This document shows, piece after piece, positions 6,635 to 61,415 of a stretch of DNA of 64,000 nt. Source of the DNA: Pelagibacterium limicola (GTDB taxonomy: Bacteria > Pseudomonadota > Alphaproteobacteria > Rhizobiales > Devosiaceae); NCBI RefSeq assembly GCF_015694405.1, contig NZ_JADQDB010000003.1:124001-188000 (forward strand). Direction: 5' to 3'. The notes under the pieces are model-generated. The model worked only from the letters and a program-made list of their open reading frames with translations. It was not told the DNA's origin and searched no databases. Numbering within the stretch: position 1 is the stretch's first letter; every line of letters starts with the position of its first letter. Both the position numbers and the translations under genes were made by a program.

Positions 6635-7352
6635 CCAACCACTCGCGGTATTCGGGCTCGGCGTCCTTGTGGAGCGGGTAGTAGCGTTTCAAAGATTCGC
6701 CGGCGAGCAGTTTTTCGCGCGAGAACTCCTCCCAGCCGTGGTCTTTGTGGGCTTTCTCGACCATCTCCTCGGCCAACGCAACCGGAACACAGACGGCCCC
6801 GTCATCGTCGGCAACGATGATGTCACCGGGCACGACCGTTACGCCACCGCATGCGACCGGGACGTTGACGGCAAAGGGCATGATATTGGTCTGGGCGTGA
6901 TAATTCGGCGTGACGCCCCTGATCCAGAGGGCGAGATCGAGCTTCTGCACGCGACCCCAATCGCGGATGCAGCCGTCAATGACGACGCCCGCCCCTTTGC
7001 GCCCCTTGAAATAGGTCATCATCATGTCGCCGAATATGCCCGACGTCATATCGCCGCGCGCATCCACGACGACGACGTCCCCCTCCTCGACCTGATAGAG
7101 AACATGACGATGGAGCTGGGCTTCGACGTCGGCATATTCGCCTTCGTCCAACAGATCCTCGCGCTTGGGCATGCATTGCAGGGTCACAGCCGGCCCCGCC
7201 ACAACCCGACCGGGGCTGAAACACAGAGGACCGGTGAGGAAGCAATTACGCAGCCCCATATGGGCCAGCGTTGCGCTGGCGGTGGCAGCACCGACCTCCC
7301 GCACTCTATCGAGCAGGTCCTTGTCCTGCCTGCTGATCCTGGCAATGTCCAT
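6609..7352 (-). CDS. RraA / HMG-aldolase family protein
   Basis: 247 residues of the RraA-like fold. Family members include regulator of RNase E activity A and class II 4-hydroxy-4-methyl-2-oxoglutarate/oxaloacetate aldolases. The active-site pattern is seen in SGIFGDMMMTYFKGR followed by AGVVIDGCIRDWGRV, giving the G-D and R-D residues that bind pyruvate and the divalent metal in aldolases. It is the last gene of the binding protein-permease operon, 27 bases after the permease stop. In this place an aldolase cleaving a 2-keto-3-deoxy acid is more likely than an RNase E inhibitor (inference). Its last 26 bases overlap the LacI gene tail-to-tail. Confidence 0.87.
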   Translation of the reverse strand: MDIARISRQDKDLLDRVREVGAATASATLAHMGLRNCFLTGPLCFSPGRVVAGPAVTLQCMPKREDLLDEGEYADVEAQLHRHVLYQVEEGDVVVVDARGDMTSGIFGDMMMTYFKGRKGAGVVIDGCIRDWGRVQKLDLALWIRGVTPNYHAQTNIMPFAVNVPVACGGVTVVPGDIIVADDDGAVCVPVALAEEMVEKAHKDHGWEEFSREKLLAGESLKRYYPLHKDAEPEYREWLVRTGQEPE

Positions 7353-7379
7353 GTCTACACGCTCCGTTGTGTCGGCGCG

Positions 7380-9329
7380 CTATCCTTTGACGCCGCCAAC
7401 CGTCAAACCCTCGACGAGGAACCGCTGGGCGTAAATGTAAAGCACCGCCACCGGTATCGCCGTCAGCAAAGAGGCCGCCATCAGCTTGCCCCAGGGCAGG
7501 ATGTCACCCACCACCATCGAGAGCATACCGATCGGCAGCGTCCGGATCGACTCCGAAGTGATGAAGACGAAGGCGAACAGGAATTCGTTCCATGCAGTTG
7601 TGAAGGCGATCAGCGTGACCGAGAGGACACCTGGCATCGCCAGTGGCAGCGTGATCTTCCAAAAGGCATAGAGCCGCGTGGCGCCGTCGATCATGGCCGC
7701 TTCTTCAAGCTCGACGGGGATCGAACGGAAATAACCGAGCAGAACCCAGGTGGCGAACGGCAACAGGAACGTCGGATAGGTCAGAATGAGCGCGGCATAA
7801 GTGTTGATGACGCCCAGTTGGGTCAGGATCTGGTAAAGCGGGATGAACAACAGCGTGCCTGGAAGCAGGTAGGTGATCAAAAGCAGCGTCGTCAGGAGGT
7901 TCGCCCCGGCGAATTTCAGCCGTGACAGTGCATAGGCGGAAAGCGCCGAGAAGGTGACCGAAATGATGGTCGAAACGGTCGCGACCAGTACGGAATTGCC
8001 CAGCCATTGCAAGAAGTTGGTCGAGTACAGCAGGGACGTATACTGATCCAAGGTAAACGGATCGGGCCAGAAGATCGAAGCCCGCTCGCTGATCTGCGGC
8101 GTCGACTTCAACGAGGTTATGATCACCCAGTAGAAGGGGAACAGAACGAAGATCAGGAATGGCACCAGCAAGGCCAGCCGGCCCACGATGCCGAGCCGAG
8201 CGATATGTTTGCGGCCGAACTGACGACCCACACCCAAGGCCGCCTGAATTGCGCGACCGATGGCCGCGAACCCGCGTGCGCCCAATTGCAGGGGCAGGAA
8301 TATGATATCGAGCAGGATATCCAGTATCCGGGCGAAGACTCGGGAAACCTGGACGCCGATTCCACCCTTGCGGTTGGACGCGGATTTGCGTTCGTCCCGG
8401 CGCATGAATCTGGCCAGCAGCCAGATCAGGACCGCCATCAGGGGCGCAACCGAAAGCGCGATGGCAATGCCCGGTCCATATTGCAACGCGCCGATGGCCT
8501 TCTCATAGGCCAGAAGCGAATAGAGCTTGGTGGCGCCGGCTGGACCGCCACCCGTCATCAGGTACGGCAGACCGAACTGGTTGAAGGTCAGGATGAACGA
8601 CAGCAAAAGCATGATCAGGATGACGTAGCGCAGTCCAGGCAAGGTGACATGCCGGAACCGCTGAACTGCGTCCGCACCATCGACCGTGGCGGCCTCCAGT
8701 TGCTCCCGGTCGATGGCCTTGAGGCCCGCCAGCAGAAGCAGCACGAAGAAGGGAATGCCTTTCCACACGTTCACCGCGATGATGCTCGACATCGCGAGGT
8801 TGGGATCGGACAGCCATCCAAGCGGCCGGTCGATTACACCCAAGCCCTGAAGTATCGGGTTCAAGCCACCGAAAATCGGATCGAAAATGCTTTTCCAAGC
8901 CAGCGCCGTCACGATTTCCGGAACGATCCAGGGCAACAGAATTATGCCGCTCAACACATTGCGGTAAGGCAGACGGCTATTGAGGATCAGAGCGATGATC
9001 AGGCCAGTGATCAGCTTCAGGCCAAGCGACCACAGGGTGAAGTTGATCGTGTTACCCATCGCCAGGCGATAATCCGAGCTCGACGCCAGCCTCTCATAGT
9101 TGCGCAAGCCGACGGACACGGTTTCCCCGGTCAAGAGGTTGAATGTCGTCGTGCTGAGCATGATCGCCTGGATAAAGGGCCAAGCGATGAGACCCAGCAT
9201 CAGCACGACCATAGGTAGGACAAAGGGGAAACCCACACTCCAGTCCGGGCCAAAGAGCATCCTGAGCCGCTTTAGCAATGCAGGAGGTCGTTTTGAGGCG
9301 GGCAATATGGTCTCGTGAGCCTGATCCAT
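7380..9329 (-). CDS. Fused sugar ABC permease (MalF-like plus MalG-like in one chain)
   Basis: 649 residues holding two complete binding-protein-dependent permease domains that are normally separate proteins. The first half (about 1-315) is UgpA/MalF-like with EAA motif EAATVDGADAVQRFRHVTLP near 212. The second half (about 381-649) is UgpE/MalG-like with EEAAMIDGATRLYAFWKITLP. Between them is a roughly 65-residue basic, amphipathic linker. The open frame is continuous with no frameshift. It is flanked by the binding protein upstream and an aldolase-like gene downstream; the matching ATPase is encoded divergently at 11196. The start at 9329 is chosen because the domain begins soon after it; no strong SD is visible. 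Residues before it in the longer reading look non-coding. Confidence 0.92.
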   Translation of the reverse strand: MDQAHETILPASKRPPALLKRLRMLFGPDWSVGFPFVLPMVVLMLGLIAWPFIQAIMLSTTTFNLLTGETVSVGLRNYERLASSSDYRLAMGNTINFTLWSLGLKLITGLIIALILNSRLPYRNVLSGIILLPWIVPEIVTALAWKSIFDPIFGGLNPILQGLGVIDRPLGWLSDPNLAMSSIIAVNVWKGIPFFVLLLLAGLKAIDREQLEAATVDGADAVQRFRHVTLPGLRYVILIMLLLSFILTFNQFGLPYLMTGGGPAGATKLYSLLAYEKAIGALQYGPGIAIALSVAPLMAVLIWLLARFMRRDERKSASNRKGGIGVQVSRVFARILDILLDIIFLPLQLGARGFAAIGRAIQAALGVGRQFGRKHIARLGIVGRLALLVPFLIFVLFPFYWVIITSLKSTPQISERASIFWPDPFTLDQYTSLLYSTNFLQWLGNSVLVATVSTIISVTFSALSAYALSRLKFAGANLLTTLLLITYLLPGTLLFIPLYQILTQLGVINTYAALILTYPTFLLPFATWVLLGYFRSIPVELEEAAMIDGATRLYAFWKITLPLAMPGVLSVTLIAFTTAWNEFLFAFVFITSESIRTLPIGMLSMVVGDILPWGKLMAASLLTAIPVAVLYIYAQRFLVEGLTVGGVKG

Positions 9330-30441: not shown

Positions 30442-30951
30442 GACTCTCAGCAAAAACTATTTCCTCCCAAAGGCTTAAGCCGGCTTTCGCCGGTGAAATC
30501 GTGGGCTTTCCCACCGGTTTGGCCACCAGCTTGACCATCCCACTGACGGCCCTTGATTCGATGTCGATGAACCTATGGCTAACCTAGATCGCATCCGCGA
30601 AGCGTGCTGTCGATTGCAAGTACGGTCTCGACTCGCTCTTCTCGATCCAGGAAGAAGCAAATGGCCCGATTTGCTTTTGCGTCAAAGGACGCTTGGTTTC
30701 AACCGTCTTTCCAGTATTCCAAGCGGCACGGCACGGGCCGTAGCATCATATCGAGACTATCCCATTTCAGTTCTCTTTGGCCTTGATTGGCCGAAGGAGA
30801 ACTGATTGGGGCGGCTTGCATCGGTGGGGCCGAAGGCGGATTGTCGGCTTGGATAGAAGAACTAAATATGCCATCATTTGCCGCCCGTGCCGGGTAACCC
30901 CGTTCGACACTTTGGGCTCACGCGACCACTGCCTGACCAAACAATTCTATC
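30442..30951. other. Gene-poor, lower-GC stretch behind tRNA-Gln
   Basis: 510 bases with no recognised gene and visibly lower GC than the flanks. Short frames exist on both strands but show no family signature. A weak hairpin, CCGGC-tttc-GCCGG (30480-30493), may end the tRNA transcript. The site just behind a tRNA and in front of an accessory gene block is typical of an old integration point, but no integrase or direct repeat of the tRNA 3' end was found. Confidence 0.4.
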
Positions 30952-33900
30952 TTAGAATGGGTAATGCTGATTTGGGTCCTCAATAGTAACCCAGCGAAGG
31001 TCAGTAAACTCGGCAATACCCGCCTTGCCGCCAAAGCGGCCATAGCCACTGCCCTTTACGCCGCCGAACGGCATTTGCGGTTCGTCGTGCACCGTGGGGC
31101 CGTTGATGTGGCAAATACCCGTCTCGAGCTGTTCGGCAATCTTGAGTGCGCGCTGTATGTTACGGCTGAAGACCGCCGATGAGAGGCCATATTCCGTATC
31201 ATTGGCAACCTTGACGGCCTCCTCATCGCCCGACACCCGGATGACGGGTTTGACCGGGCCAAACGACTCTTCGATATAAATGCGCATGTCGGCACGGACA
31301 TTGTCGACCAGAGTCGCGTTAACCACCGATCCTTCGCGATAGCCCCCCGCGACGATATTGCCGCCCCTGTTGCGGGCGTCGGCTATGAACTCCTCCATGC
31401 GCTCGGCCGCGCTGGGTTCAACGAGCGAGCCAAGCACAACCTGCCCGCGTGGATCTCCGGCCAGCAAACCCTTTGCCTTTTCGGCGAGTTTGGAAACGAA
31501 CGCGTCCGCGACCTTCTCGTCGACGATGATGCGTTCCGTGGACATGCAAATCTGGCCCTGATTCATGTAGGAGCCGAACGCCGCAGCATTGACCGCCGCA
31601 TCCAGATCCGCGTCATCGAGCACAATGAAAGGGGCTTTTCCGCCCAGCTCGAGCAAAGCGGGTTTGAGATGGCGACCGCAAAGTTCGCCGATGATCTTGC
31701 CAACACGGGTAGAGCCGGTGAAGTTGACGCGTCGTACGGCCGGATGCGCAATGAGCGCTTCAACGATCTTGGGTGCGTCTTCGGGCGCGTTGGAGATCAC
31801 GTTGATAACCCCCTTGGGTAGCCCGGCCTCGGTCAAAACTTCGCCTATAAGTCGATGTGTTGCTGGACAGGCTTCGGAGCTTTTGAGCACCACAGTGTTG
31901 CCACAGGCAATCGGCATGGCGACGGCACGCACACCCAGTATGACCGGCGCGTTCCACGGTGCCATGCCAACGCAGACGCCTGCCGCACGGCGCATGGCCA
32001 TGGCAAGATTCCCTGGTTTGTCCGAAGGAATGATTTCGCCACCGATCTGGGTCGTCATAGAGGCTGCCTCGGTCAGGATCTTGGCGGCAAACATGACGTT
32101 GAACGCGCCCCATGGACCGGTCGAGCCGGTTTCCTCGGTCATCAGGCGCGCGAAGTCATCCGACCGGCTCTTGAGGATATCGGCGGCCTTTAGCAGTATT
32201 TCACGGCGCTCGCTCGGACCGGTTTTGGACCAGGCTGGGAAGGCTGCCTGGGCAGCTTCAACAGCCTTGACAGCGTCATCAACTGCTGCCGCCGCAGCGC
32301 GCGTTGCAACCCGGCCGGTAAAAGGATCGTTACGTTCAAATGTGGCGCCACCGGTTGCTCCGCGATCCTCGCCGTCGATCAGAAGTCTTTGGTCCATAAT
32401 CTTGCTCTCCTCTGTCGGGTGTGTGCTGCTCGGCGTGGTCTCCGATGTGGCAATGGCTCGGGGTTCCGATTGCTGCTTGGGCGCTGGTGCAACGGCACCT
32501 TCCGCAAGGTGCGGTACCCAAACATCGAGAACCGCTGATCTGTTTTCGTAACGCACAGCGCGGAGTGCCGTAACAATTGCATCGTCAAGCTGACTGCGGT
32601 CGGTCACCTTGATCGCAAGGGCTCCACCCGCAGCCGCGGCGATCCCGCCATAGTCGGCCGGCTCGTCGAAAGTGACATCCACAGTGTCGGCCCGGCTCGC
32701 ATATCCGTCCGGATGAACGGCGAGCGCTGAAAGACGCGGCGACTTCCAGCCGCGATTGTTGAAAACGACCTGAAGGATGGGAGCTTTGTACCGCCGGGAC
32801 ATCCAGTGGACGCTCGAAGGCACCGAGAACATATAGGACCCATCACCTGTCAGCGCGACGATCGTCTTGTCCGGATAGGCGAGCTTGGCCCCCAAGGCGG
32901 CCCCGCCATTCCAGCCTAGCGAGCCCCCACCACTGGTAAATAGGCTTCCGGGCTTATCGAGCTGCAGGTGATCGCCGATTGTGTGATAATGCGAGATGCC
33001 TTCGCTGATATAAATCGCGTCCTCGCCAATATGGCGGCGAAGGGCGGCGACGAGCACTTCGCCCGTGAGCGATTCATTCTGCTCAAGCGCACTAAGCCGT
33101 TGCCGGCGTTGCTCATGCAGATTTGCATAGTGGCTACGGCGTTCGGACAGAACCGGGTCGTCCAGATGCAGCGTTTCGCAACGGCGATTGATCTGCTTGA
33201 GCGCAGTCGCTGCGTCAGCGCGATAGGAACGTCGGGTGGGGAAGTGCCAGAGCGGCATCTGCTGTTTGAGTGGATCGATATCGATGTGATGGATGATGGC
33301 ATCATCCTTGGGACGGCTGACCGCAGGGATCCAGGGAATGTCGCTATCGATCAGCAACACGACGTCGGCTTCCGCCAGCACCGGATTCTGCACCGGCTGG
33401 TTCCACTGATTGCCCTGATGGAGCGGATTGCTCGCCGGGAAATTGACGTAGTTGGGGACGGATTCCAGAACAGCGATGCCCAGCCGGTCGCAGAGTTTCA
33501 CCAGCTCGGCGACCGCTTCGGGCCTGCGCCCCAGATATGAGGTGATAACTAGAGGGCGCCGCGCCCGCATAAGGTCACCAAGGATGTCTTCCACGCTGTC
33601 GTCAGATAGCGCCGTAAGTGCGGGCGGGCGGAAATCGATCCGTTGGCGAACCTCGGGGACCTCCTCTTCCATAACCTCTCGTGAGCCCATGAGATAGACG
33701 GGACCCTTGGGGTCTGCATAAGCGAATTTCAGCGCCCGCTCGACCAACTGGCCGATGTTGCGTCCTGCCCGTATCTCATTGTCATAGCGCATATAGCCGC
33801 GCACGATACCGCGCTGGTCGTGTACGTCCTGTATCCACTGGATGAATTCGTTTCTGCTGCCCTTGTATTCGCCTGACTGGGTACTAGGAGAACTTCCGGC

Positions 33901-34209
33901 AAATATCAGTACGGGAACGCGCCCCTTGTCGGCGTTGTGCACGGCGCCAGCAAGCGCCTGCGTGCCGCATTCTACGTGAACAATCACCGCCTGAGCGCGT
34001 CCGGTTGTCTGTGCAAAGCCATGCGCGGCCGATAGGGCGACCATCTCATTAGGGCAAATGATGATCTCGGGTACCTTTTTGCCCGTCGCACGCGCAAATG
34101 CGATGCCTTCGATCAGCGCAGGGTGGTCGCTGCCCCAATTCGCGAAAATATACGATACACCGGCCTCAACGAGAGCGTCGAGAAAGGCGCTGCTGGCAGT
34201 ATAGGTCAT
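30952..34209 (-). CDS. Natural fusion: ThDP-dependent 2-oxoacid decarboxylase-like enzyme + aldehyde dehydrogenase
   Basis: 1085 residues in one uninterrupted frame. Residues 1-570 are a thiamine-diphosphate enzyme of the acetolactate synthase/benzoylformate decarboxylase superfamily: cofactor-activating E55 in PNEMVALSAAHG, and the metal/ThDP motif GDGS (455-458) ending NN (484-485). Residues 571-604 are a Ser/Thr/Pro/Gln-rich linker. Residues 605-1085 are a complete NAD(P)-aldehyde dehydrogenase with PWN753, FTGST (830-834), E854 in LELGGK and catalytic C888 in GQICMS. The ALDH Met605 (at 32397) is preceded by a perfect SD (GAGGAG), so separate ALDH may also be made. Together the parts could turn a 2-oxo acid into the shorter carboxylate through a bound aldehyde, as MdlC and MdlD do for phenylglyoxylate (inference). 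The MarR gene lies 20 bases upstream. Confidence 0.93.
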   Translation of the reverse strand: MTYTASSAFLDALVEAGVSYIFANWGSDHPALIEGIAFARATGKKVPEIIICPNEMVALSAAHGFAQTTGRAQAVIVHVECGTQALAGAVHNADKGRVPVLIFAGSSPSTQSGEYKGSRNEFIQWIQDVHDQRGIVRGYMRYDNEIRAGRNIGQLVERALKFAYADPKGPVYLMGSREVMEEEVPEVRQRIDFRPPALTALSDDSVEDILGDLMRARRPLVITSYLGRRPEAVAELVKLCDRLGIAVLESVPNYVNFPASNPLHQGNQWNQPVQNPVLAEADVVLLIDSDIPWIPAVSRPKDDAIIHHIDIDPLKQQMPLWHFPTRRSYRADAATALKQINRRCETLHLDDPVLSERRSHYANLHEQRRQRLSALEQNESLTGEVLVAALRRHIGEDAIYISEGISHYHTIGDHLQLDKPGSLFTSGGGSLGWNGGAALGAKLAYPDKTIVALTGDGSYMFSVPSSVHWMSRRYKAPILQVVFNNRGWKSPRLSALAVHPDGYASRADTVDVTFDEPADYGGIAAAAGGALAIKVTDRSQLDDAIVTALRAVRYENRSAVLDVWVPHLAEGAVAPAPKQQSEPRAIATSETTPSSTHPTEESKIMDQRLLIDGEDRGATGGATFERNDPFTGRVATRAAAAAVDDAVKAVEAAQAAFPAWSKTGPSERREILLKAADILKSRSDDFARLMTEETGSTGPWGAFNVMFAAKILTEAASMTTQIGGEIIPSDKPGNLAMAMRRAAGVCVGMAPWNAPVILGVRAVAMPIACGNTVVLKSSEACPATHRLIGEVLTEAGLPKGVINVISNAPEDAPKIVEALIAHPAVRRVNFTGSTRVGKIIGELCGRHLKPALLELGGKAPFIVLDDADLDAAVNAAAFGSYMNQGQICMSTERIIVDEKVADAFVSKLAEKAKGLLAGDPRGQVVLGSLVEPSAAERMEEFIADARNRGGNIVAGGYREGSVVNATLVDNVRADMRIYIEESFGPVKPVIRVSGDEEAVKVANDTEYGLSSAVFSRNIQRALKIAEQLETGICHINGPTVHDEPQMPFGGVKGSGYGRFGGKAGIAEFTDLRWVTIEDPNQHYPF

Positions 34210-34229
34210 CGAAAGCCCTCCCTTGAAGT

Positions 34230-34715
34230 TTATGCGGTTTCGACGGCGGCTTGCTGTGCTGCCTGAAGCGTGGTCTCCACGCTGAGTGCGTCCTGGATGC
34301 GTTTGAGCATCGATATCAAATCGGACTTGTTCTCCGGACCCACGATTTGATCGAGAAGTGCGTCATGAACGACGGCAAGGTCTTCGAGACGGGCCAGATG
34401 CGTTTTACCCGCTGAAGTCAGTTCGATCCGATAGCTGCGCCGGTCGACATCGGATCGTTGACGCTGGACATAGCCCTTGCGCGAGAGTTCGCTGAGCGTT
34501 GAGGTCAGTGTCGAGGTGTCCCGTGCCGACGCCCTGCTTAGTTCGCCCTGGGTCAAACCCGGATTGCGGGCAATTATGCTCAGAATTGTATAATGCCCCG
34601 GCTTCAGGTCAGGATCCCCGAAGCGGCGCCTGATCGCGGCAAAGCTCGCCTCCTGAGCGAGCCGAAGATGATAGGCGATGGTCTGTTCTACTGCAACGGG
34701 CCGTGCACTGGGCAT
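34230..34715 (-). CDS. MarR-family transcriptional regulator
   Basis: 161 residues with the MarR winged-helix pattern: HYTILSIIARNPGLTQGELSR, DTSTLTSTLSELSRKGYVQR, then the wing SDVDRRSYRIELTSAGK. MarR proteins are dimeric repressors released by phenolic or other small ligands. It is the first gene of a two-gene unit with the decarboxylase-ALDH fusion, and two tandem palindromes lie just upstream of it. It therefore most likely represses itself and the fusion gene (inference). Confidence 0.93.
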   Translation of the reverse strand: MPSARPVAVEQTIAYHLRLAQEASFAAIRRRFGDPDLKPGHYTILSIIARNPGLTQGELSRASARDTSTLTSTLSELSRKGYVQRQRSDVDRRSYRIELTSAGKTHLARLEDLAVVHDALLDQIVGPENKSDLISMLKRIQDALSVETTLQAAQQAAVETA

Positions 34716-34758
34716 CCGCCTCCCTCCCCTTTTTGGCCTGCCTTCTCGGCGGCATGAT

Positions 34759-34800
34759 TAGTTTGATATCAAACTATAAATTTAGTTTGATGGCAAACCA
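34759..34800. promoter_or_regulatory. Tandem MarR operators
   Basis: An 18-base perfect palindrome, TAGTTTGATATCAAACTA (34759-34776), is followed after six bases by an imperfect copy, TAGTTTGATGGCAAACCA (34783-34800). Their centres are 24 bases apart. They lie 44 bases upstream of the MarR start in an AT-rich promoter-like stretch. Palindromes of this size are typical MarR sites. Confidence 0.7.
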
Positions 34801-34898
34801 ATATTTTTCTTAGGAACCGGCCGAGTAACAGGAGGTCTATGGGAAATCGAAGATCGCGCCTCGCCGAACACGGCCTGACATGACCGACCGTACGAGCC

Positions 34899-35831
34899 TT
34901 ACTCGTCAGGCACCTCAAGGAGTTTTTCGCGATGGTTCCACACGATCTGCAGCACCCATTGCACAAAAGGGTCCAAAGTGCTGCGCTGATGCCACACGAC
35001 TGAAAGCTTCACCGGCGGCAGGCGTATCGGGGCTTTATGGATGGCAATTCGCCGTTGGTTGCCGAGCCATTCTGCAGGTTTGCGTGGCAGGGTCGCCAGA
35101 AGATCACTGCGCGAAGCCAGATGCAGTGCTGTGACATAATGGGGTACTGAGATCGCAATGCGGCGACGTTGCAGGGTATTGTCGAGATGGGCCTCGATCG
35201 GGTCGGCCTGCAGTCCCTGGTTGACGAGCGATATGTGGCTCGCGGCGAAATAACTGGCCTCGGTCAAGGGCCCAAACTTTTCCGTCCAGTCCGATCGGCT
35301 GACGACAACGACGTCGCCTGTCATCAAGACCGTTTTGTGCAGACCTTCAGCAACCTCACGAAACGGGGCAATGGCAAGATCCAAATCTCCACGAGCAAGC
35401 ATCCCCGGGGCTTCTATCGGGCCGGCGTGCACAAATTGTATTTTTGCGCGTGGCGCTTGTGCCTGAAATATTTCGAGCAGGTGCGGCGCGAGCGTAATTG
35501 TGGCGAACTGGTACGTGCCAATGCGCAGCGTGCGATCCGATTTCGTCGGATCGAAACTGCGTTCTCCTGCGATAATGCCGCCTAGCCGATCAAGCACATC
35601 CTGGATGGTCGGCGCCAGTGCATTCGCCTTTTCGGTCGGCGCCATGCCTGACGCCGTGCGTACAAAAAGTGGGTCGTCGAAAATGACCCGCAGGCGACCA
35701 AGCGACTGGCTTAGTGCCGATTGGGTCAATCCGCAGCGCACTGCCGCACGGGTCAGATGACCTTCGCTGTGGATGACCTGAAACGCTATCAGCAACTTGA
35801 TGTCGAGTTGCCGCAGCAATGATGAATACAT
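34899..35831 (-). CDS. LysR-family transcriptional regulator
   Basis: 310 residues. The N-terminal HTH (LDIKLLIAFQVIHSEGHLTRAA, then GLTQSALSQSLGRLR) and an effector-binding domain from about residue 95 (RTLRIGTYQFATITLAPHLL) show the NodD/LeuO/LinR-like branch. It is divergent from the M24-ABC operon and shares with it a control region holding a perfect inverted repeat, so it probably regulates that operon in response to its substrate (inference). Confidence 0.93.
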   Translation of the reverse strand: MYSSLLRQLDIKLLIAFQVIHSEGHLTRAAVRCGLTQSALSQSLGRLRVIFDDPLFVRTASGMAPTEKANALAPTIQDVLDRLGGIIAGERSFDPTKSDRTLRIGTYQFATITLAPHLLEIFQAQAPRAKIQFVHAGPIEAPGMLARGDLDLAIAPFREVAEGLHKTVLMTGDVVVVSRSDWTEKFGPLTEASYFAASHISLVNQGLQADPIEAHLDNTLQRRRIAISVPHYVTALHLASRSDLLATLPRKPAEWLGNQRRIAIHKAPIRLPPVKLSVVWHQRSTLDPFVQWVLQIVWNHREKLLEVPDE

Positions 35832-35889: not shown

Positions 35890-35988
35890 CTTCGTTAGGT
35901 AAATGAATTTGACGAATGAGAGGCAGTGCCAGAAGCTGCCCAGAAAGTGATGCTCCGAGCATCCCGAATTAGGCGGAGGAAATATCTG

Positions 35989-37278
35989 ATGAATGCGGCC
36001 CCAAGAGGTGCAGGTGCGGTATTGTCTGCGCACGCGAGCGAAAGAATGCCCAGCCCGTGGCCTTCTTTGTCGCTAAAAGAGCGCGATTGCCGCTGGTCCA
36101 GGACGCGTGCAATGCTGGAGGAGCATAACCTCGATTGCCTCGTCCTTTTTGGCTACAAGAGCCATGACCACTATGACTGCTATCTCACCAACGAGCAGTT
36201 CGATGGGGCTGTCATCCTGCCGCGGGAAGGTGAACCCATCGCCTTTACTGCGCTGACCCAACGCCTGACACGCCGCCTTGCGAGCAATCTTCCCGGCGAA
36301 TTCTGGGTCAACGACGTTCGGATTGGCCGCTATGGACCACAGACAGTAAGCGTATTGAAAGAACTCGGCCTCGAGCGTGGGCGCATCGGCGTCTTTGGCC
36401 TCGACTCCTGGGGGCCTGGCGAATTTGACGGCCTCGTACCCTACCGCATGTGGCAGACCGTACTTGAAGGCCTGCCCGGAGCCGAATTCGTCGACATTTC
36501 CGTGCCGTTCAAGAAAATGATGCTCAAAAAGAGCGCCGAAGAAATCGAACTGTACCGGTTCAGCGGAAAGATCGGCGATATCGCCTGTCGTGCCATGCTC
36601 GAAGCGACGGCCGAAGGCGTTCCCGAGACTGAAATCTACGCCGCGGTCCAGCATGCCATTTTCAGGAACGGAGCCGATGCCTGGTGGCCTCACCTCAACT
36701 TGACGGTCGGGGCGGACGATATCGGCTGGGGACCCCCGATATGGATTTATCGTGGCGGTGAACCGCGCCGGGTCCGTCAAGGCGATCTGGTCCAGGCCGA
36801 GATCTTCCCTTGCTATGGGGGTGCAGAAACCCAGCAACAGATGTCGATTGCCGTCGGGCCAGTTCCTGACCTCCATTATGAGTTGGGCGAAGTCGCGTCG
36901 AAGTCGCTGGCAGAGGGCGCAAACATTCTCAAAGCGGGTGTGACGCTTGGCGAAGTCGCACAGGCGATGTTCGCGCCGATCCGCGAGAACCCTGATTACT
37001 GGACGCTTTCGCCGCTGGTTCACACCCTCGGCCCGGGGCCGTTCGTCAGCAATCTTGGATACAATATCGAGAACTCGCCAGCGCGCGCACTCAGCCCTCG
37101 CGTCGCGGAAATGACCGGCAAAGGTCAGGACACCGTGCTCGAGGCCGGGATGATCATCGCGTTCGAGCCAAATGTCTGCAAGGGGCAAACCCGCGTCAAT
37201 ATTGGCGGCACGGTAATCGTTACCAAAACCGGGTTTGAAGACCTCAACACTCTCCCCAATCGCCTGAATGTGGTTTGA
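35989..37278 (+). CDS. M24-fold (creatinase/aminopeptidase P-like) hydrolase lacking most metal ligands
   Basis: 429 residues with the creatinase N-domain (about 35-170) and a pita-bread C-domain. True M24 peptidases need two Asp, a His and two Glu. Here the strand that should carry the two Asp reads GDLVQAEIFPCYGGAETQQQMS, so both are replaced; the last Glu is replaced in TRVNIGG; H345 and E393 (FEPN) remain. Creatinase-type members work without metal, so a C-N hydrolase for a small imported compound is a better guess than a peptidase. An excellent SD (GGAGG) fixes the start at 35989. First gene of the operon with an ABC importer, three bases before the ATPase. Confidence 0.85.
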   Translation: MNAAPRGAGAVLSAHASERMPSPWPSLSLKERDCRWSRTRAMLEEHNLDCLVLFGYKSHDHYDCYLTNEQFDGAVILPREGEPIAFTALTQRLTRRLASNLPGEFWVNDVRIGRYGPQTVSVLKELGLERGRIGVFGLDSWGPGEFDGLVPYRMWQTVLEGLPGAEFVDISVPFKKMMLKKSAEEIELYRFSGKIGDIACRAMLEATAEGVPETEIYAAVQHAIFRNGADAWWPHLNLTVGADDIGWGPPIWIYRGGEPRRVRQGDLVQAEIFPCYGGAETQQQMSIAVGPVPDLHYELGEVASKSLAEGANILKAGVTLGEVAQAMFAPIRENPDYWTLSPLVHTLGPGPFVSNLGYNIENSPARALSPRVAEMTGKGQDTVLEAGMIIAFEPNVCKGQTRVNIGGTVIVTKTGFEDLNTLPNRLNVV

Positions 37279-37281
37279 GTC

Positions 37282-38418
37282 ATGTCAGAACCAACCAATG
37301 ACAAGCCGTTGCTGAGTGTTAGGGGGCTGGCCGTCTCATACGGACGTGCAGGGCAATCCGAAAACGCGGTGCAGTATCTCGATCTGGATGTGTCGGAAGG
37401 CGAGATGTTTGTCCTGCTTGGCCCAAGTGGGTGCGGCAAGACAACATTGCTGCGTGCGGTCGCAGGGCTACAGGCCCCGCATTCGGGCAGCGTCACCATT
37501 GATGGGCAGGACGTCTACAACTCGAAATCTGGCAATTCGGTACCGCCTGAAAAAAGGCCGGTCTCGATGGTTTTCCAGTCCTACGCCCTTTGGCCGCATA
37601 TGAGCGTCGCTGAAAACGTGGCTTTTCCATTGCGTGAAGGCAGACGTGGCGTGCCGCGCGACGAGGTTGCGGAACGGGTGACCGAGGTTCTCGAAATGCT
37701 GGGCCTGTCAAACATGCGGGACCGGCCTGTCACAACGTTGAGTGGTGGCCAGCAGCAGCGCGTCGCACTTGCACGGGCGCTGGCTTTGCGTCCGCGCCTT
37801 TTGCTGATGGATGAGCCATTGAGCAACCTCGATTATGAACTCCAGGTACGGTTACGCGGACAGGTCAAGGAGTTGGTTTCCAGGATTGGCGTGACCACGC
37901 TTTACGTGACCCACAATCAGAACGAAGCACTGGAGATGGCCGACCGGCTGGCTGTCATGGATGCGGGAAAGTTTCGCCAGATAGGCTCTCCGCGCGAACT
38001 CTATCATGGACCATCGAGTGAATTTGTCGCCCGCTTCATCGGCGATATGAACCTGCTGCCTGCCAGGATTGCCGAGGTCGGACCAAACTTATGGGTCGAT
38101 ACGCCGCTTGGTCGTTTGCGGGCTGGAACGAACTGCATTGACGATGCCAAAGTCGGGCAATCGTGCCTGTTTGGCGTCCGTCAGGAAGATATCGAGATTG
38201 GCGACAATCAGGGTGCCGACAATATCGTATCGGCCAGTGTTGATCGCGCCACATTTTCAGGGGACTCGATCAGCTACCAGATGAATGTCAACGGAACGGG
38301 TCTTCAATGCCGGCTTCATCGCCGTTTCGATGTTCCTCCCGGACGCGACGTTCTACTCAGATTGCCTGTTGAACATTGTCTCGTTGTTCCAACAGACGGC
38401 CAAACGGGTGCGTCATGA
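37282..38418 (+). CDS. ABC transporter ATP-binding protein (FbpC/PotA-like)
   Basis: 378 residues. Walker A GPSGCGKTT, Q-loop VFQSYALWPHMSV, signature LSGGQQQR, Walker B LLLMDEPLSNLD and H-loop TLYVTHNQ are complete. The C-terminal TOBE-like domain (about 245-375) is of the iron(III)/polyamine/phosphonate importer class. It starts three bases after the M24-like gene and overlaps the permease start by four (ATGA), so all are translated together. Confidence 0.94.
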   Translation: MSEPTNDKPLLSVRGLAVSYGRAGQSENAVQYLDLDVSEGEMFVLLGPSGCGKTTLLRAVAGLQAPHSGSVTIDGQDVYNSKSGNSVPPEKRPVSMVFQSYALWPHMSVAENVAFPLREGRRGVPRDEVAERVTEVLEMLGLSNMRDRPVTTLSGGQQQRVALARALALRPRLLLMDEPLSNLDYELQVRLRGQVKELVSRIGVTTLYVTHNQNEALEMADRLAVMDAGKFRQIGSPRELYHGPSSEFVARFIGDMNLLPARIAEVGPNLWVDTPLGRLRAGTNCIDDAKVGQSCLFGVRQEDIEIGDNQGADNIVSASVDRATFSGDSISYQMNVNGTGLQCRLHRRFDVPPGRDVLLRLPVEHCLVVPTDGQTGAS

Positions 38419-40094
38419 CGCTCGGCCCAAAAGGATTTGTGATCCTCCTGCGGATCATTGCGGCGACCGCAGTGATCTGCGTGTTTGCGATGCTGGCCAT
38501 GCTGATTATCGCCAGCTTCAGCCCGAAGTCTGAATTCGGCGCATGGACGCTCGCCAACTACATCGATATGGCCGGAATGCGGCAGCTTTGGCCGGCCATC
38601 TTCAACACTTTGGTTGTAGGCATCGGCACGACAACCTTCTTGCTGATGTTCGCGCTGCCCTTCACTTGGGTACTGAGCCGGACAGATTTTGCCTCAAAGG
38701 GAGTTTTGCTGACCATCCTCACGGTATCGCTGGCCCTCCCGGCCTTCGTGACCGCAATGGCCTATGTCTGGCTGCTCAACCCCAATTCGGGAATCTTCAA
38801 CCGGTTGCTGGAATCCGCCTTCGGTTGGAGCCGGGTGTTCAATGTCTATTCGCTTGGCTGGATCTGCTTCATTCAGGCGCTGATGCTCACGCCTGCCGCT
38901 GTCTTCATGATGCTCCCGGCGTTCCGCAATTTCGATTCAACGCTTGAAGAGGCCGCTTCTGTCAGCGGCATCAGCCCTCGCCGCGCGTTTTTCAAGATTG
39001 TCCTGCCCACGCTGGCACCAGCGGTTGGTGCGGTGTCGATCTTCTTTTTCATCCTAGCGGTCGAGATATTTGACGTTGTCGGCGTTATCGGCATGCCGGG
39101 CAATATCGATGTGATCACGACGCTGGTCTACCAGTCTACCTACACCGTCTATGGGCCGCCCGATTATGGGTTCGCCGCCACTCTGGGCATGCCCCTGCTC
39201 GCATTATGTGCCATTGGCGTGCTGATCTATCTTTGGCTGCTGCGCCGAGCCGATCGCTATTCGATGCTGAGCGGCAAGAACCGTGCACCCATATTGCGCG
39301 ACCTCGGTCGCTGGCGCTTCGCCGTATGGGGTCTGATTGGGACATGGGGCACGCTCGCCGTCGTTCTTCCGCTGTTGACGGTGATCTGGACCTCACTGAC
39401 CCCTTACCTTCAGCCCCCGTCGATGGCAGCACTCTCGCAGTTGAGCTTCAGCAGCTATCGTGGCGCTGCCGGACTTGTGTGGGCGCCCTTTGTAAACACA
39501 ATCCTCTTGGTTATCGGCACAATCGTCTTTTCGATTGTGTGGAGTGTCAGCGTTTCGTGGTTGGCAACACGCGTCCGCTCCAAAATCGATAAAGCTCTCG
39601 ATGCCATCGTGTTTCTGTCGCTCGCAGTGCCTGGAATGCTTGCCGCCGTGGCCATGCAATTCCTGGCGCTCAGCGCATATCACTGGGTCCCCCTGCTCGG
39701 AACGCTTTGGCTGATCATCATAACCATGGCTATCCGCTCGCTGGCCTTTACCACACGCACGCTCAATTCTTCCGCGTTGCAGATCCATTCCTCGCTGGAA
39801 GAAGCGGCCTATGTGTCCGGTGTGGGTCGCATGCGTACATTCCTCCGCATCTTTTTGCCGGTGATCAAGCCAGCGATCATGTTTGCGGTGCTCGTTACCA
39901 CGTTGATTTCCGCGCGTGAGTTGACCATCCCGCTGATGCTCTATTCGCCGCGCTCTTCAGTCATCTCGACCACCATTTTCGATCTTCAGGCGACCGGCCG
40001 CTACGACGAGGCCGCCGTATTCAGCCTGCTGATAATCGCGATCCTGCTTGTGCTTGCACTCGCGTCGCGAAGAAGGACGGCCCCGATCGCATGA
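38415..40094 (+). CDS. ABC transporter permease with two permease domains (FbpB/AfuB-like)
   Basis: 559 residues, about twelve membrane helices. Two internally similar halves each carry an EAA loop (LEEAASVSGISPRRAFFKIVLP and LEEAAYVSGVGRMRTFLRIFLP). Two-domain permeases of this length are normal for Fbp/Afu/ThiP-type importers, unlike the sugar permease fusion at 7380. The ATG at 38415 overlaps the ATPase stop (ATGA). Confidence 0.94.
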   Translation: MTLGPKGFVILLRIIAATAVICVFAMLAMLIIASFSPKSEFGAWTLANYIDMAGMRQLWPAIFNTLVVGIGTTTFLLMFALPFTWVLSRTDFASKGVLLTILTVSLALPAFVTAMAYVWLLNPNSGIFNRLLESAFGWSRVFNVYSLGWICFIQALMLTPAAVFMMLPAFRNFDSTLEEAASVSGISPRRAFFKIVLPTLAPAVGAVSIFFFILAVEIFDVVGVIGMPGNIDVITTLVYQSTYTVYGPPDYGFAATLGMPLLALCAIGVLIYLWLLRRADRYSMLSGKNRAPILRDLGRWRFAVWGLIGTWGTLAVVLPLLTVIWTSLTPYLQPPSMAALSQLSFSSYRGAAGLVWAPFVNTILLVIGTIVFSIVWSVSVSWLATRVRSKIDKALDAIVFLSLAVPGMLAAVAMQFLALSAYHWVPLLGTLWLIIITMAIRSLAFTTRTLNSSALQIHSSLEEAAYVSGVGRMRTFLRIFLPVIKPAIMFAVLVTTLISARELTIPLMLYSPRSSVISTTIFDLQATGRYDEAAVFSLLIIAILLVLALASRRRTAPIA

Positions 40095-40123
40095 CGGGGT
40101 CTTAACGAGGAGGAGAAACTGGA

Positions 40124-41209
40124 ATGACCAATTTGAGAAACACACCCCAACCGACCGAAAGGCCGCCCCGGCGCAATGTGCTAAAGCAGGCAGCGGCGGG
40201 CGTGACAATGCTGGCATTTGGTATGGTTCAGCCTGCCTTTGCACAGGGCACCGCGCAATTACCAGAATCGATTGCCGCCCTGATACCCGCCGCGCAGAAC
40301 GAGCCCGAAGCCGTGATGTTCGGCCTATCGATACCCGCAGACAGCGCCGCCGACTTCAAGAAAGCGCTGGACGACTTTTACGGGTTCTCGCTCAACATTC
40401 AGTTTCAGGGCGGCCTGGGTCCCCAGAAGGCTGCAGAAGTTGCACAACTGGTCAATCGGGGCGTTCCTGCCGGAGTGGACGCCTTCTATGCGGGTGAAGG
40501 CACAACGATATTTCTGCGGAGCGAAGGCGCACTCATCGAGGAGGAATGGGCCCGTGAGCTGGGAATACCCGAAGACCGCCTTGTTGACGGCGCCTCGGTA
40601 AAAATTATCGATAGTTCCCTCCCGCTTATGTCCTACAACACCGAGCTGGTCGCGGCTGAGGACCTGCCGACCTCATGGGAGGACCTTCTTGATCCCAAGT
40701 GGAAAGGCAAGATCACGACTCCAAAACTCCCGGGCGGCACGTTCTTTTTCAACACATACTCGGTGGGTGAAGAAAAGATGACGGAGATCCTCAAAGGCAT
40801 CATGGAGCAGGATGTCATCTGGGTACCCCGCACCCCAGACGCCGCAACACGCCTTCTCAGTGGCGAAGCCTCCCTTGCACTCGGTGTCGATATCGAATCC
40901 CAGGTGATCCGCGGTGCACCGCTCGATTATGTACACATCGAACCCATGTTCCTTGCCCCATGGGCACTGAACCTGGTGAAGGGCACGCAGAGCCCAAACA
41001 CAGCCAAGCTCTATGCCTACTTTGTCGCAACCGATGAAGGCCAGGCTGCACTGAACGCGGCAACGGGTTACTCAACGATCAACCGCGCTGACTCCACCAA
41101 GGCGCAGCTGCTCGCCCAGTACAATCCCGGCTACGTGCCACAGGAATGGATCCGCGAAAACTATGAGCGCCTGGTCGCCAAATATTCCGAGATCATGGGC
41201 CTTCGCTAG
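40124..41209 (+). CDS. ABC transporter substrate-binding protein (FbpA/AfuA-like, Tat-type leader)
   Basis: 361 residues. The leader contains RRNVLKQAAAGVTMLAFGM, a twin-arginine-like signal, with cleavage expected after AFA at about residue 40. The mature part is a type 2 periplasmic binding fold (LPTSWEDLLDPKWKGKI is the family block). The Tyr cluster that binds Fe3+ in FbpA is not evident, so the ligand is more likely an organic or phosphorylated compound than free iron (inference). Very strong SD (GAGGAGGAG). Last gene of the operon. Confidence 0.92.
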   Translation: MTNLRNTPQPTERPPRRNVLKQAAAGVTMLAFGMVQPAFAQGTAQLPESIAALIPAAQNEPEAVMFGLSIPADSAADFKKALDDFYGFSLNIQFQGGLGPQKAAEVAQLVNRGVPAGVDAFYAGEGTTIFLRSEGALIEEEWARELGIPEDRLVDGASVKIIDSSLPLMSYNTELVAAEDLPTSWEDLLDPKWKGKITTPKLPGGTFFFNTYSVGEEKMTEILKGIMEQDVIWVPRTPDAATRLLSGEASLALGVDIESQVIRGAPLDYVHIEPMFLAPWALNLVKGTQSPNTAKLYAYFVATDEGQAALNAATGYSTINRADSTKAQLLAQYNPGYVPQEWIRENYERLVAKYSEIMGLR

Positions 41210-56271: not shown

Positions 56272-57717
56272 ATGAGCTTCAAGATTGCCATTATCGGCGC
56301 CGGTTCGGTGGGCTTTACAAGGACCCTCGTCTCGGATGTTCTGAAGGTACCCGACTTCGCGGATATCGAGATTGCCCTCACCGATATCAACGCGCACAAT
56401 CTCGACATGATCCGGCAGATCATCGAACGCATCGTGTCGGTCAACAACCTGCCCGCCAAGGTTACGGCGACCACAGACCGGCGTGCTGCGCTGGCGGGCG
56501 CCCGTTATATCCTCAGTTGCGTACGCGTCGGCGGACTGGAAGCCTTCGAAACCGATATCAACATCCCGCTCAAATATGGCGTCGACCAATGTGTAGGCGA
56601 CACGATCTGCGCCGGCGGCATCATGTACGGCCAGCGCAATGTGCCGGTGATCCTCGATTTCTGTCGGGACATCAAGGAAGTTGCCGAGCCGGGAGCGCTG
56701 TTCCTCAACTATGCGAACCCGATGGCGATCAATACCTGGGCGGCTCTCCAGTACGGTGGGGTCAATACCGTGGGCCTCTGCCACGGCGTGCAGCACGGGG
56801 CGCACCAGATTGCAAAGGTGTTGGGCGTAACGGACGACGAACTGGATTATATCTGTTCAGGCATCAACCACCAGACGTGGTATGTCGATATCCGCGCGAA
56901 GGGACGGAAAATCGAAGCGGACGAACTCATTGCCGCTTTTGAACGACACCCCGTTTACTCGCGGCAGGAAAAGCTGCGTATCGACGTGCTCAAGCGGTTT
57001 GGGGTCTATTCGACCGAGAGCAACGGGCACTTGTCGGAATACCTGCCCTGGTACCGCAAGCGGCCCGAGGAAATCGGCAAGTGGATCGATACCAGTGAAT
57101 GGATTCACGGCGAGACGGGCGGCTATCTGCGCCACTGCACGGAACAACGCAACTGGTTCGAAACCGATTTTCCCCAATTCCTCGAGCAAGCAGGCAAGTC
57201 CTTGAGCGAGCACAAGCGCACCTCCGAACATGCGAGCCATATCATTGAGGCCATCGAAACCGGCCGCGTCTATCGCGGCCATTTCAACGTGCGAAACGAT
57301 GGGGCGATCACAAATTTACCCGCCGACGCGATCATCGAGAGCCCGGGCTTCGTAGACCGGTTCGGGATCAACATGGTCGAGGGCATTACGCTGCCATTGG
57401 CCTGCGCCGCGACGTGTTCGGCAACCATTTCTGTGCAGCGCATGGCAATGGAGGCTGCGGTCAAGGGCGACATCGATCTGCTGAAGCTCGCCATGCTGCA
57501 CGACCCGCTCGTAGGTGCGATCTGCACGCCCGAGGAGGTGTGGGCCATGGCCGACGAGATGGTCGTCGCGCAGGCCAAGTGGCTGCCGCAATATGCCGGT
57601 GCCGTTCCCGCGGCCAAGGAGAGGCTTGCCAAGTCCACGGTCAAGACGCGCGAATGGGAAGGGGCGGCGCGGCAGCGTATCCGGGCGGTCGAGGAATTGC
57701 GGACAACCGGCCGTTAA
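56272..57717 (+). CDS. GH4 alpha-galactosidase/alpha-glucosidase-family protein
   Basis: 481 residues. GH4 enzymes cleave by an NAD-assisted redox mechanism with a Mn ion. Visible are the NAD loop IGAGSVG (8-14), NYANPMAIN (146-154), the metal Cys in GLCHGVQ (C170) and His in SGINHQTW (H200). The conserved TICAGGIMYG is near 111-120. It has no predicted export signal, so it acts in the cytoplasm on imported oligosaccharides. 90 bases before the halogenase-like gene. Confidence 0.92.
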   Translation: MSFKIAIIGAGSVGFTRTLVSDVLKVPDFADIEIALTDINAHNLDMIRQIIERIVSVNNLPAKVTATTDRRAALAGARYILSCVRVGGLEAFETDINIPLKYGVDQCVGDTICAGGIMYGQRNVPVILDFCRDIKEVAEPGALFLNYANPMAINTWAALQYGGVNTVGLCHGVQHGAHQIAKVLGVTDDELDYICSGINHQTWYVDIRAKGRKIEADELIAAFERHPVYSRQEKLRIDVLKRFGVYSTESNGHLSEYLPWYRKRPEEIGKWIDTSEWIHGETGGYLRHCTEQRNWFETDFPQFLEQAGKSLSEHKRTSEHASHIIEAIETGRVYRGHFNVRNDGAITNLPADAIIESPGFVDRFGINMVEGITLPLACAATCSATISVQRMAMEAAVKGDIDLLKLAMLHDPLVGAICTPEEVWAMADEMVVAQAKWLPQYAGAVPAAKERLAKSTVKTREWEGAARQRIRAVEELRTTGR

Positions 57718-57806
57718 CATCTTTAAAACCCGCAAATCTGGTCTTCGTTACCGGATTGCCGATTGCCGCGCCGCGGGGCAGACTGCCGCGACGCGGGAGG
57801 GTTAAG

Positions 57807-59351
57807 ATGGACGGACGGCAAAGCCATTTTGTGGTTGTAGGCGGTGGGACGGCAGGCTGGATCACCGCCTTCATCATTCAGGATAGCGCGTGGCGTAAAG
57901 GGCTGAACGCAAGGATTTCGGTCGTCGAGTCCTCGAAAATTCCTACGGTTGGCGTCGGCGAGGCGACGACGGCCGCGTTTCGTGTGCTGCTCAAGCATTT
58001 CAACATCGATGAGTTCGAATTCTTCCGGGAGACGGAGGCCAGCTTCAAGCTCGGCATCCGGCACGAAGACTGGCGGCGCAAGGGCTATACCTATTACGGT
58101 CCGATCGACGATCCGCACCAGGTCATCCAGCCGCCGCGCGGGGCACCGAGCGATTACCTTAACGTCTACGCGGTGTCGGCGGGCAAACCGGTGCAGGATA
58201 TGCATCTTTTCGGACCGCTGCTCGAACGCAAGAAGGCGCCCTATGCGCTGGGCAAGGACGGTTCGCTGGTACCGCTTGGTCCCTTCCATTATGCGTTCCA
58301 TTTCGATCAAGCGCTGGTCGGCAAGTTCTTCGCGCGCAAATCCAAGGGGGTAGATATTGTCGATGCGCTCGTCTCCGGTGTCGAGCGCGATCCTGAAACC
58401 GGGCTTATCAATGCGCTCGTCCTGGATGAAGGAAGGCGGCTTGAGGCGGACTTTTTCATCGACGCCACGGGTTTTCGCAAGCAGATCATCGTCAAGGAGT
58501 TGCAGGCGCCCTGGATCTCCTACGCCCATGAACTGCCCGTCAATCGGGCCCTGCCCTTCTGGATCGACATCAAGGAGGGCGAGGAGATCGCCAACTACAC
58601 GCGCGCATGGGCCCAAAGCGCGGGCTGGATGTGGCAAATTCCCACGCAGTACCGTTATGGCTGCGGCTACGTCTATTCCGACGAATTCCTGACGCCCGAG
58701 GAAGCCAAGGAAGAGGTCGAGCGCGTTCTGGGGCACGGGATCGAAGTGCGCAGCGACATTCGTTTTTCCATTGGCCGGCTGGAAACACCGTGGATTGGCA
58801 ACTGCCTTGCGGTGGGGCTTTCGTCGAGTTTCCTCGAACCGCTCGAATCCACATCGATCCACGGCACGATCGTCCAGGTGATGCTGTTTGCCGGGCGATT
58901 CCTGAAGGAGCCCAGCAAGATGAGCCAGGCGGACCGGGATGATTATAACCGTCGTGTCGGCCGTCAGGTCGACGACTTCCGGACATTCGTCAACACGCAC
59001 TATGTGGTCGAGCGCGAGGACACCCCCTTCTGGCGCGAGGTGAAGGCCAATCGCATCCATCCCGAGACCAAGGATCGGCTTGCGCGCTGGGGACGGGAAA
59101 TGCCGCGGCACGAACACTTCCCGAACTACCTCGATGGCCTCCCGCACATCGAAACGCAATTGCATTATCCTGTACTCGACGGCCTGGGGCTGCTCGACCG
59201 CGATCTCGCAAAGCGCGAGATGGCGCGCGACCCTGCGCTGCGCACGTTTGCGAAAAAGAGCTATGATAGCCTCGTCAAGGAGTACAAGCAGGCCGCGACC
59301 AAGGCCCTGGGGCACGCGGAGTTCCTCAGAATCGTCCGGGAGATGGCATGA
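57807..59351 (+). CDS. Flavin-dependent tryptophan-halogenase family protein
   Basis: 514 residues. The FAD loop GGGTAGW (12-18) starts the chain. The halogenase signature WxWxIP is intact (W274, W276, I278, P279). The lysine that forms the chloramine in PrnA/RebH is K81 in SFKLGIRHEDW, and the partner Glu is in LEPLESTSIH (E347). So all residues needed for FADH2-dependent halogenation are present. The start at 57807 has a perfect SD (GGAGGG); the longer frame back to 57414 overlaps GH4 and is rejected. It lies among sugar-use genes, not next to Trp genes or an evident flavin reductase. Substrate unknown. Confidence 0.92.
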   Translation: MDGRQSHFVVVGGGTAGWITAFIIQDSAWRKGLNARISVVESSKIPTVGVGEATTAAFRVLLKHFNIDEFEFFRETEASFKLGIRHEDWRRKGYTYYGPIDDPHQVIQPPRGAPSDYLNVYAVSAGKPVQDMHLFGPLLERKKAPYALGKDGSLVPLGPFHYAFHFDQALVGKFFARKSKGVDIVDALVSGVERDPETGLINALVLDEGRRLEADFFIDATGFRKQIIVKELQAPWISYAHELPVNRALPFWIDIKEGEEIANYTRAWAQSAGWMWQIPTQYRYGCGYVYSDEFLTPEEAKEEVERVLGHGIEVRSDIRFSIGRLETPWIGNCLAVGLSSSFLEPLESTSIHGTIVQVMLFAGRFLKEPSKMSQADRDDYNRRVGRQVDDFRTFVNTHYVVEREDTPFWREVKANRIHPETKDRLARWGREMPRHEHFPNYLDGLPHIETQLHYPVLDGLGLLDRDLAKREMARDPALRTFAKKSYDSLVKEYKQAATKALGHAEFLRIVREMA

Positions 59352-61396: not shown

Positions 61397-61415
61397 TGGG
61401 AAAGTCTCCAAGGAA

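Follow-up and report, generated by a model that had tools for sequence, protein, structure and literature searches.

In the mandelate pathway of Pseudomonas, the benzoylformate decarboxylase MdlC and the benzaldehyde dehydrogenase MdlD are separate proteins, and the pairing of a benzoylformate-type decarboxylase with a separate aromatic aldehyde dehydrogenase (ALDH) is textbook biochemistry. In AdhE, by comparison, an acylating ALDH is joined to an alcohol dehydrogenase, such that a reactive aldehyde is handled by two domains of a single chain. The gene described here lies in a 64,000-nucleotide stretch of the Pelagibacterium limicola genome (contig NZ_JADQDB010000003.1, positions 124,001 to 188,000; hereafter the window) and brings elements of both systems together: it encodes, in one uninterrupted frame, a thiamine diphosphate (ThDP)-dependent enzyme followed by an ALDH. 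It shares with AdhE-type fusions the handling of an aldehyde within one chain, although AdhE does so without ThDP chemistry, and it shares with MdlC and MdlD the same two-step logic; a single chain with both activities would be a variant of that known enzyme pair. A further parallel is found in the bzfRABCD cluster of Pseudomonas sp. LLC-1, which holds a benzoylformate decarboxylase (BzfA), a benzaldehyde/vanillin dehydrogenase (BzfC), a major facilitator superfamily (MFS) transporter and a regulator (PMC7760541). As in the fusion, both enzymes are encoded together, in that case with the transporter and the regulator, but they are separate genes with the transporter gene in between, and the regulator is of the LysR family, vs. 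MarR in the window (PMC7760541). No description of a natural single chain combining a benzoylformate-type decarboxylase with an aromatic ALDH was found in open-access full texts searched with a few term combinations.

The frame contains no internal stop over its 1085 residues (translation of the minus strand, 30952-34209), and Pfam places TPP_enzyme_N/M/C at residues 4-562 and Aldedh at 622-1074 (Aldedh E 4e-149). The product is accordingly a bifunctional fused enzyme in the plain sense of two whole domains in one uninterrupted frame, as the first-pass annotation of this DNA had proposed, and the catalytic residues which that annotation named are present at the places claimed in both halves (E55 and the GDG motif in the first; N753, E854 and C888 in the second). 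No second copy occurs among the matches listed for the same genome, where identity does not exceed 43% for the next ALDHs and is 22 and 31% for the remaining ThDP matches. The parts of the locus are as follows.

34230..34715, minus strand: MarR-family regulator gene, 20 nucleotides upstream of the fusion gene (Pfam; MarR homologues in loci of the clade)
34216..34222, minus strand: Shine-Dalgarno (SD) sequence GGGAGGG of the fusion gene (SD pairing)
30952..34209, minus strand: fusion gene, 1085 codons plus stop, ATG start (single ATG-to-stop frame; Pfam; sole full-length match in its own genome)
32506..34209, minus strand: ThDP-dependent, benzoylformate-decarboxylase-like half, residues 1-568, PRK08327 family (NF006203, 651.8 bits; AlphaFold2 predicted local distance difference test, pLDDT, 93.9)
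32398..32505, minus strand: linker, residues 569-604, AEGAVAPAPKQQSEPRAIATSETTPSSTHPTEESKI, predicted to be disordered (end of homology; residues 567-600 with pLDDT <50)
32405..32412, minus strand: internal SD GAGGAGAG ahead of ALDH Met605 (SD-pairing comparisons)
30955..32397, minus strand: ALDH half, residues 605-1085, salicylaldehyde/vanillin dehydrogenase type (phmmer to 6qhn, 9ihb)

The MarR-family gene at 34230..34715 and the fusion gene probably share an operon; a promoter and terminator scan of 30600-35000 returned 1 and 2 sites against 1.7 and 3.5 expected and is uninformative. On the opposite strand, an antisense open frame of 320 aa (window 31589-32551, plus strand) spans the linker and part of the ALDH half, and is probably a mere by-product of base composition.

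The junction carries the evidence on how the fusion may have come about. Separate relatives of the ThDP half commonly end in WLPHL or WLPHLMEG directly before the stop codon, where the window protein has '...WVPHLAEGAVAP...' and reads on through '...WVPHLAEGAVAPAPKQQ...'. A linker between the halves is indeed present, as had been claimed, but with the end of the ThDP half defined by where similarity stops it measures 36 residues (569-604) rather than 34, with a high content of Ala, Glu, Pro, Ser and Thr. An AlphaFold2 model of the whole fusion assigns residues 567-600 a pLDDT below 50 and most of the ALDH half values above 90; this model (mean pLDDT 75.6, predicted template modelling score 0.53) has a poor ThDP half, probably because its alignment mixed half-length sequences, and was used for the linker and ALDH parts only. 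The open linker is by itself unremarkable, since 36 codons of its composition would stay free of stops about 47% of the time; what is notable is the join of two whole enzymes. Seven nucleotides ahead of the ATG of Met605 (32397-32395) stands GAGGAGAG, whose pairing with the tail of the 16S RNA, predicted at -9.1 kcal/mol, is the strongest among the 21 internal in-frame ATGs, bearing out the earlier statement that an SD had been kept there. Pairing as strong is reached by 2 of the 50 ATGs in all frames, Met605 itself included, and by 4 of all 143 ATG, GTG and TTG codons, while the gene's own start is predicted to pair at -11.8 kcal/mol. Starts of 96 separate ALDH relatives have a median of -8.0, with 32 at -9.1 or better; for 480 random ATGs the median is -2.7, and 7 reach -9.1. 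The internal SD is therefore typical of separate ALDH starts, which fits a first gene that has lost its stop codon.

Two relatives, L041 and L046, carry a ThDP gene and then an ALDH gene in the same order and frame as the window with one stop between them, and a third, L093, has the same order, frame and single stop, but a more distant ThDP gene. The origin that the first-pass annotation proposed, stop loss in a two-gene operon, is plausible on these sequences, since separate genes occur there in a suitable arrangement; the stop loss itself is a step that we infer. A fourth locus, L333 (genome G1150, same phylum), holds a genuine benzoylformate decarboxylase gene (868.6 bits vs. a cut-off of 493) directly before an ALDH gene; the ALDH shares 62% identity with that of the window, and an MFS gene lies close by. 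In it (L333:5265-8447, minus strand) the decarboxylase gene stops at TGA and the ALDH ATG follows 10 codons on in the same frame, which makes this a third ThDP-ALDH pair, fusable in principle by one mutation.

The first-pass annotation had also suggested searching for single chains with both domains, and the search yielded one, in Nioella nitratireducens, and no other among the candidates scored in genome searches. Across the two partner groups, of 35 and 37 rows (72 in all), a chain of more than 600 residues is encoded twice, in the window and in Nioella (L040:1179-4433, contig NZ_MNBW01000011.1). The Nioella chain has 1084 aa, the same domain order, a linker of some 36 residues rich in Ala and Pro, and a strong internal SD with ATG (-9.5, the strongest of 26 internal in-frame ATGs). 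Its ThDP half differs in falling within a second clade of the tree together with unfused neighbours, at 33% identity to the window's, and its ALDH, 67% identical to the window's, groups with unfused enzymes of Actibacterium, Pararhodobacter and Thalassovita (Rhodobacterales; support 100), apart from that of the window. Because both Nioella halves group with unfused enzymes and away from the window's, the ThDP-ALDH fusion is, as judged from these trees, a convergent one made independently at least twice. It is also rare: no further fused match occurred among those scored and listed from 136 family, 397 and 297 order, 385 class and 329 phylum genomes, which are overlapping samples with the best 2-5 candidates scored per genome (family 5; order 3 and 4; class 3 and 2; phylum 2), where candidate fused chains were listed frames of at least 1000 residues and shorter listed ones (e.g., 926 and 799) were left out. 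The length of a listed open frame served as a hint only, as such a frame need not end at a stop codon: a listed 1061-residue frame of G1150 was rejected as a fusion on account of a TGA between the genes in the DNA. The long frames L207 (1276 residues), L208 (1161), L209 (1007) and L215 (1027) proved upon reading not to be decarboxylase-ALDH fusions. As a separate observation, L208:4828-8234 (genome G844) holds tandem PRK08327-type ThDP genes, about 40% identical to Nioella's.

These results bear on the suspicion that the join is an artefact of sequencing or assembly, or that the allele is damaged, in a lineage whose living cells have two genes. No close relative confirms the fusion, and the genome searches brought up no other fused match among those scored; against this, neither half is damaged, nothing interrupts the frame and the linker resembles a domain linker, and the same architecture in a second, unrelated assembly (Nioella, NZ_MNBW01000011.1) weakens the case, leaving it very improbable in our judgment. 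We give far more weight, a little short of an even chance, to a neutral fusion in which the halves act as separate enzymes without channelling and the linker is a mere tether conferring no measurable advantage, a view compatible with the chemistry proposed below. The fused state in just 2 of 72 rows would suit it, as would the predicted disorder of the linker, the single stop mutation that is enough to reach it from the arrangement of L041 and L046, and the 47% chance of 36 open codons; what it accommodates poorly is that a similar fusion arose twice independently from whole domains, with linkers of about equal length. At the other extreme, it is conceivable, if rather unlikely, that stop loss was selected twice in unrelated alphaproteobacteria, with both genes giving a dual output of fused decarboxylase-ALDH from the full start and free ALDH from the retained internal start; the toxic aldehyde would then be kept within oligomers that mix fused and free subunits, or within lattices of ThDP and ALDH oligomers, with free ALDH serving other routes. 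That free ALDH may be made from Met605 is suggested by the internal SD and by the strong internal SD of the independent fusion; kinetic channelling of the aldehyde is possible, but stands outside the main reading given below.

How regularly the two enzymes keep company was judged from 220 non-redundant loci, drawn from public contigs and further genomes, with 124 ThDP sites. In a tree of 122 of these, 34 rows form the window's clade and 34 to 35 the second clade, each with support 100, and the remaining sites are here called the rest; L241 and L098 are one place, both counted in the 35-row tallies. The two genes are separate in relatives and often neighbours in either order, with the ALDH gene upstream or downstream, on either strand, and adjacent or about 6 kb off behind an ATP-binding cassette (ABC) transporter. 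When the count is limited to sites found by searching with the ThDP half alone, a close ALDH (at least 55% identity) occurs in the flanks of 9 of 14 in the window's clade, 4 of 22 in the second and 0 of 53 in the rest, some of which have short flanks (e.g., L302, L293; L150 has only 1.5 kb per side). Named loci with an ALDH (7 of 20 in the window's clade and 13 of 13 in the second, L040 included) were left out of this count because the ranking probably favours pairs that join into one long match, and an excess of same-frame neighbours (7 of 11 unfused pairs) was set aside on the same ground. A MarR homologue is present at 27 of 35 rows of the window's clade (window included), 10 of 35 of the second clade and none of 54 in the rest. 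Other neighbours in the 35 rows of the window's clade include TRAP DctP (12), TctC (10), an MFS transporter (4) and a flavin mononucleotide (FMN) dehydrogenase (4), the last of the Pfam family FMN_dh, which we take to be that of (S)-mandelate dehydrogenase. Two side observations concern the same loci. A 177-aa cupin (Cupin_7) gene lies near the second-clade ThDP gene at three ALDH-bearing loci (L101:9289-9822, L245:6532-7065 and L266:8773-9306), and a pair of related ALDH genes is arranged head to tail in L057, L050, L058, L059 and L097 (about 6001-8970; Rhizobium, Ciceribacter and Thioclava contigs).

We consider it fairly probable that the fusion is a bifunctional enzyme that arose by stop loss from a MarR-linked pair, leads from an aromatic 2-oxo acid through the aldehyde to a benzoate, and keeps the old ALDH start. 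The ancestral state would have been a MarR-linked catabolic pair, a ThDP-dependent 2-oxo acid decarboxylase followed by an aromatic ALDH, in which the first stop codon was lost and the former spacer became the disordered linker. The chain would most likely act on an aromatic 2-oxo acid in two steps, releasing CO2 and ending at the corresponding benzoate, with substrate and activity being what we infer from sequence and predicted structure. The acid decarboxylated by the ThDP half would most likely be a benzoylformate, for example 4-hydroxybenzoylformate or vanilloylformate, and the ALDH half would oxidise the resulting aldehyde with NAD(P)+. The genome encodes PcaH/PcaG (protocatechuate 3,4-dioxygenase) and PobA (4-hydroxybenzoate 3-hydroxylase), so the cell could make use of an aromatic acid product, which would pass to the 4-hydroxybenzoate hydroxylase and then to protocatechuate 3,4-dioxygenase. 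Some free ALDH would plausibly still be made from the old start, because that start and its SD survive.

For the ALDH half, the assignment to the salicylaldehyde/vanillin dehydrogenase group follows from its active-site residues and from similarity over the whole domain. The active-site Asn, Glu and Cys are present as N753, E854 and C888, with E854 invariant in the alignment, and the closest solved relatives by phmmer are the salicylaldehyde dehydrogenase 6qhn (E 8e-174) and the vanillin dehydrogenase 9ihb (E 2e-164), together with the salicylaldehyde dehydrogenase NahF (4jz6), all at E 4e-162 or better; they match nearly the whole half, but are stand-alone enzymes. Thirty-eight named NCBIfam ALDH models were matched, and none of the 25 listed reached its cut-off.

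The ThDP half exceeds the cut-off of PRK08327 (NF006203) over residues 2-567, with 651.8 bits vs. 456, and E55, H78, G455-D456-G457 and N485 are invariant in a 65-sequence alignment that includes the window; the catalytic Glu and the GDG...N cofactor motif place it among ThDP-dependent enzymes of the decarboxylase superfamily. Its comparison with benzoylformate decarboxylase involves Ser26, His70 and His281 of that enzyme, which we take to be active-site residues. S27 and H78 align with Ser26 and His70, and both are invariant in the 25-sequence alignment of the window's clade. An AlphaFold2 model of this half alone (pLDDT 93.9) has as its top Foldseek matches the 4-hydroxybenzoylformate decarboxylases of Rhodococcus jostii RHA1 (7orx) and Pseudomonas fluorescens Pf-5 (6qsi), though these are stand-alone and only about 20% identical, and benzoylformate decarboxylases head its VIA list (Z 43.6, 516 residues, root-mean-square deviation 3.0). 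The parallel with MdlC and MdlD drawn in the first-pass annotation thus holds for the structure, for the active-site Ser and His, for the FMN-dehydrogenase and transporter genes near some relatives and for the L333 pair, but it fails at the profile, which rejects benzoylformate decarboxylase for the ThDP half.

That rejection belongs to a set of observations that weigh against the proposal. The score for PRK07092 (NF005485, benzoylformate decarboxylase) is 134.8 bits where 493 is needed; the Ser26 equivalent varies across the 65 sequences (consensus GTD); and the position of MdlC His281 is Pro295 here in an alignment to 4k9o, a distant match. The half resembles benzoylformate decarboxylase, yet is not classed as one, because the family cut-off is missed and His281 is absent. 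Within the VIA list, HKA synthase (43.4) and acetohydroxyacid synthase (42.7) lie less than 1 Z from the best, so the fold leaves the chemistry undecided, and PRK08327 is named nowhere in the literature searched. The genome has a single strong FMN_dh gene, which lies on another contig (C4) and is about 29% identical to the one beside a relative, such that a mandelate-type first step would be putative here. Finally, among the 34 rows that the window's clade has besides the window, 18 show no ALDH of this family in the stretch read; the partnership is common, not obligatory.

Part of this would suit a different activity for the ThDP half, such as a 2-hydroxyacyl-CoA lyase releasing formyl-CoA and an aldehyde, or a carboligase, with the ALDH still clearing the aldehyde. 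Carboligating ThDP enzymes tie in the fold comparison, PRK08327 carries no stated activity, and a profile of the 65 sequences scores 2-hydroxyacyl-CoA lyases as high as benzoylformate decarboxylases (E 7e-51 vs. 2.6e-50). A profile of the window's clade, however, puts benzoylformate decarboxylase first (5e-37 vs. 1.5e-29), and the 2-hydroxyacyl-CoA lyase equivalog NF058623 gives 99.8 bits against a cut-off of 600. Moreover, no CoA-ligase or CoA-transferase family occurs among the 30 neighbour genes scanned, a part of all neighbours and several of them without a Pfam match. We regard this other lyase or carboligase activity as improbable next to the decarboxylation of an aromatic 2-oxo acid.

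Elsewhere in the window, a tryptophan-halogenase-family gene (57414-59351, plus strand) is placed by Pfam between two family 4 glycoside hydrolase genes (56272-57717, plus strand; 60026-61432, minus strand), and this region adjoins what appear, from the letters of their open reading frames, to be peptide-type ABC transporter genes. At 35926-41209 (plus strand), an M24-peptidase-family gene is followed by an ABC importer set (ATPase, permease and binding protein) beside a LysR gene; the ATPase is most like putative 2-aminoethylphosphonate/polyamine types.

A natural decarboxylase-ALDH fusion of this kind would offer a ready scaffold for converting lignin-derived aryl C2 acids to benzoates without free aldehyde. 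With two independent fusions and unfused relatives in the same gene order, both the fusion of operon partners by stop-codon loss and what becomes of the internal start are directly testable.

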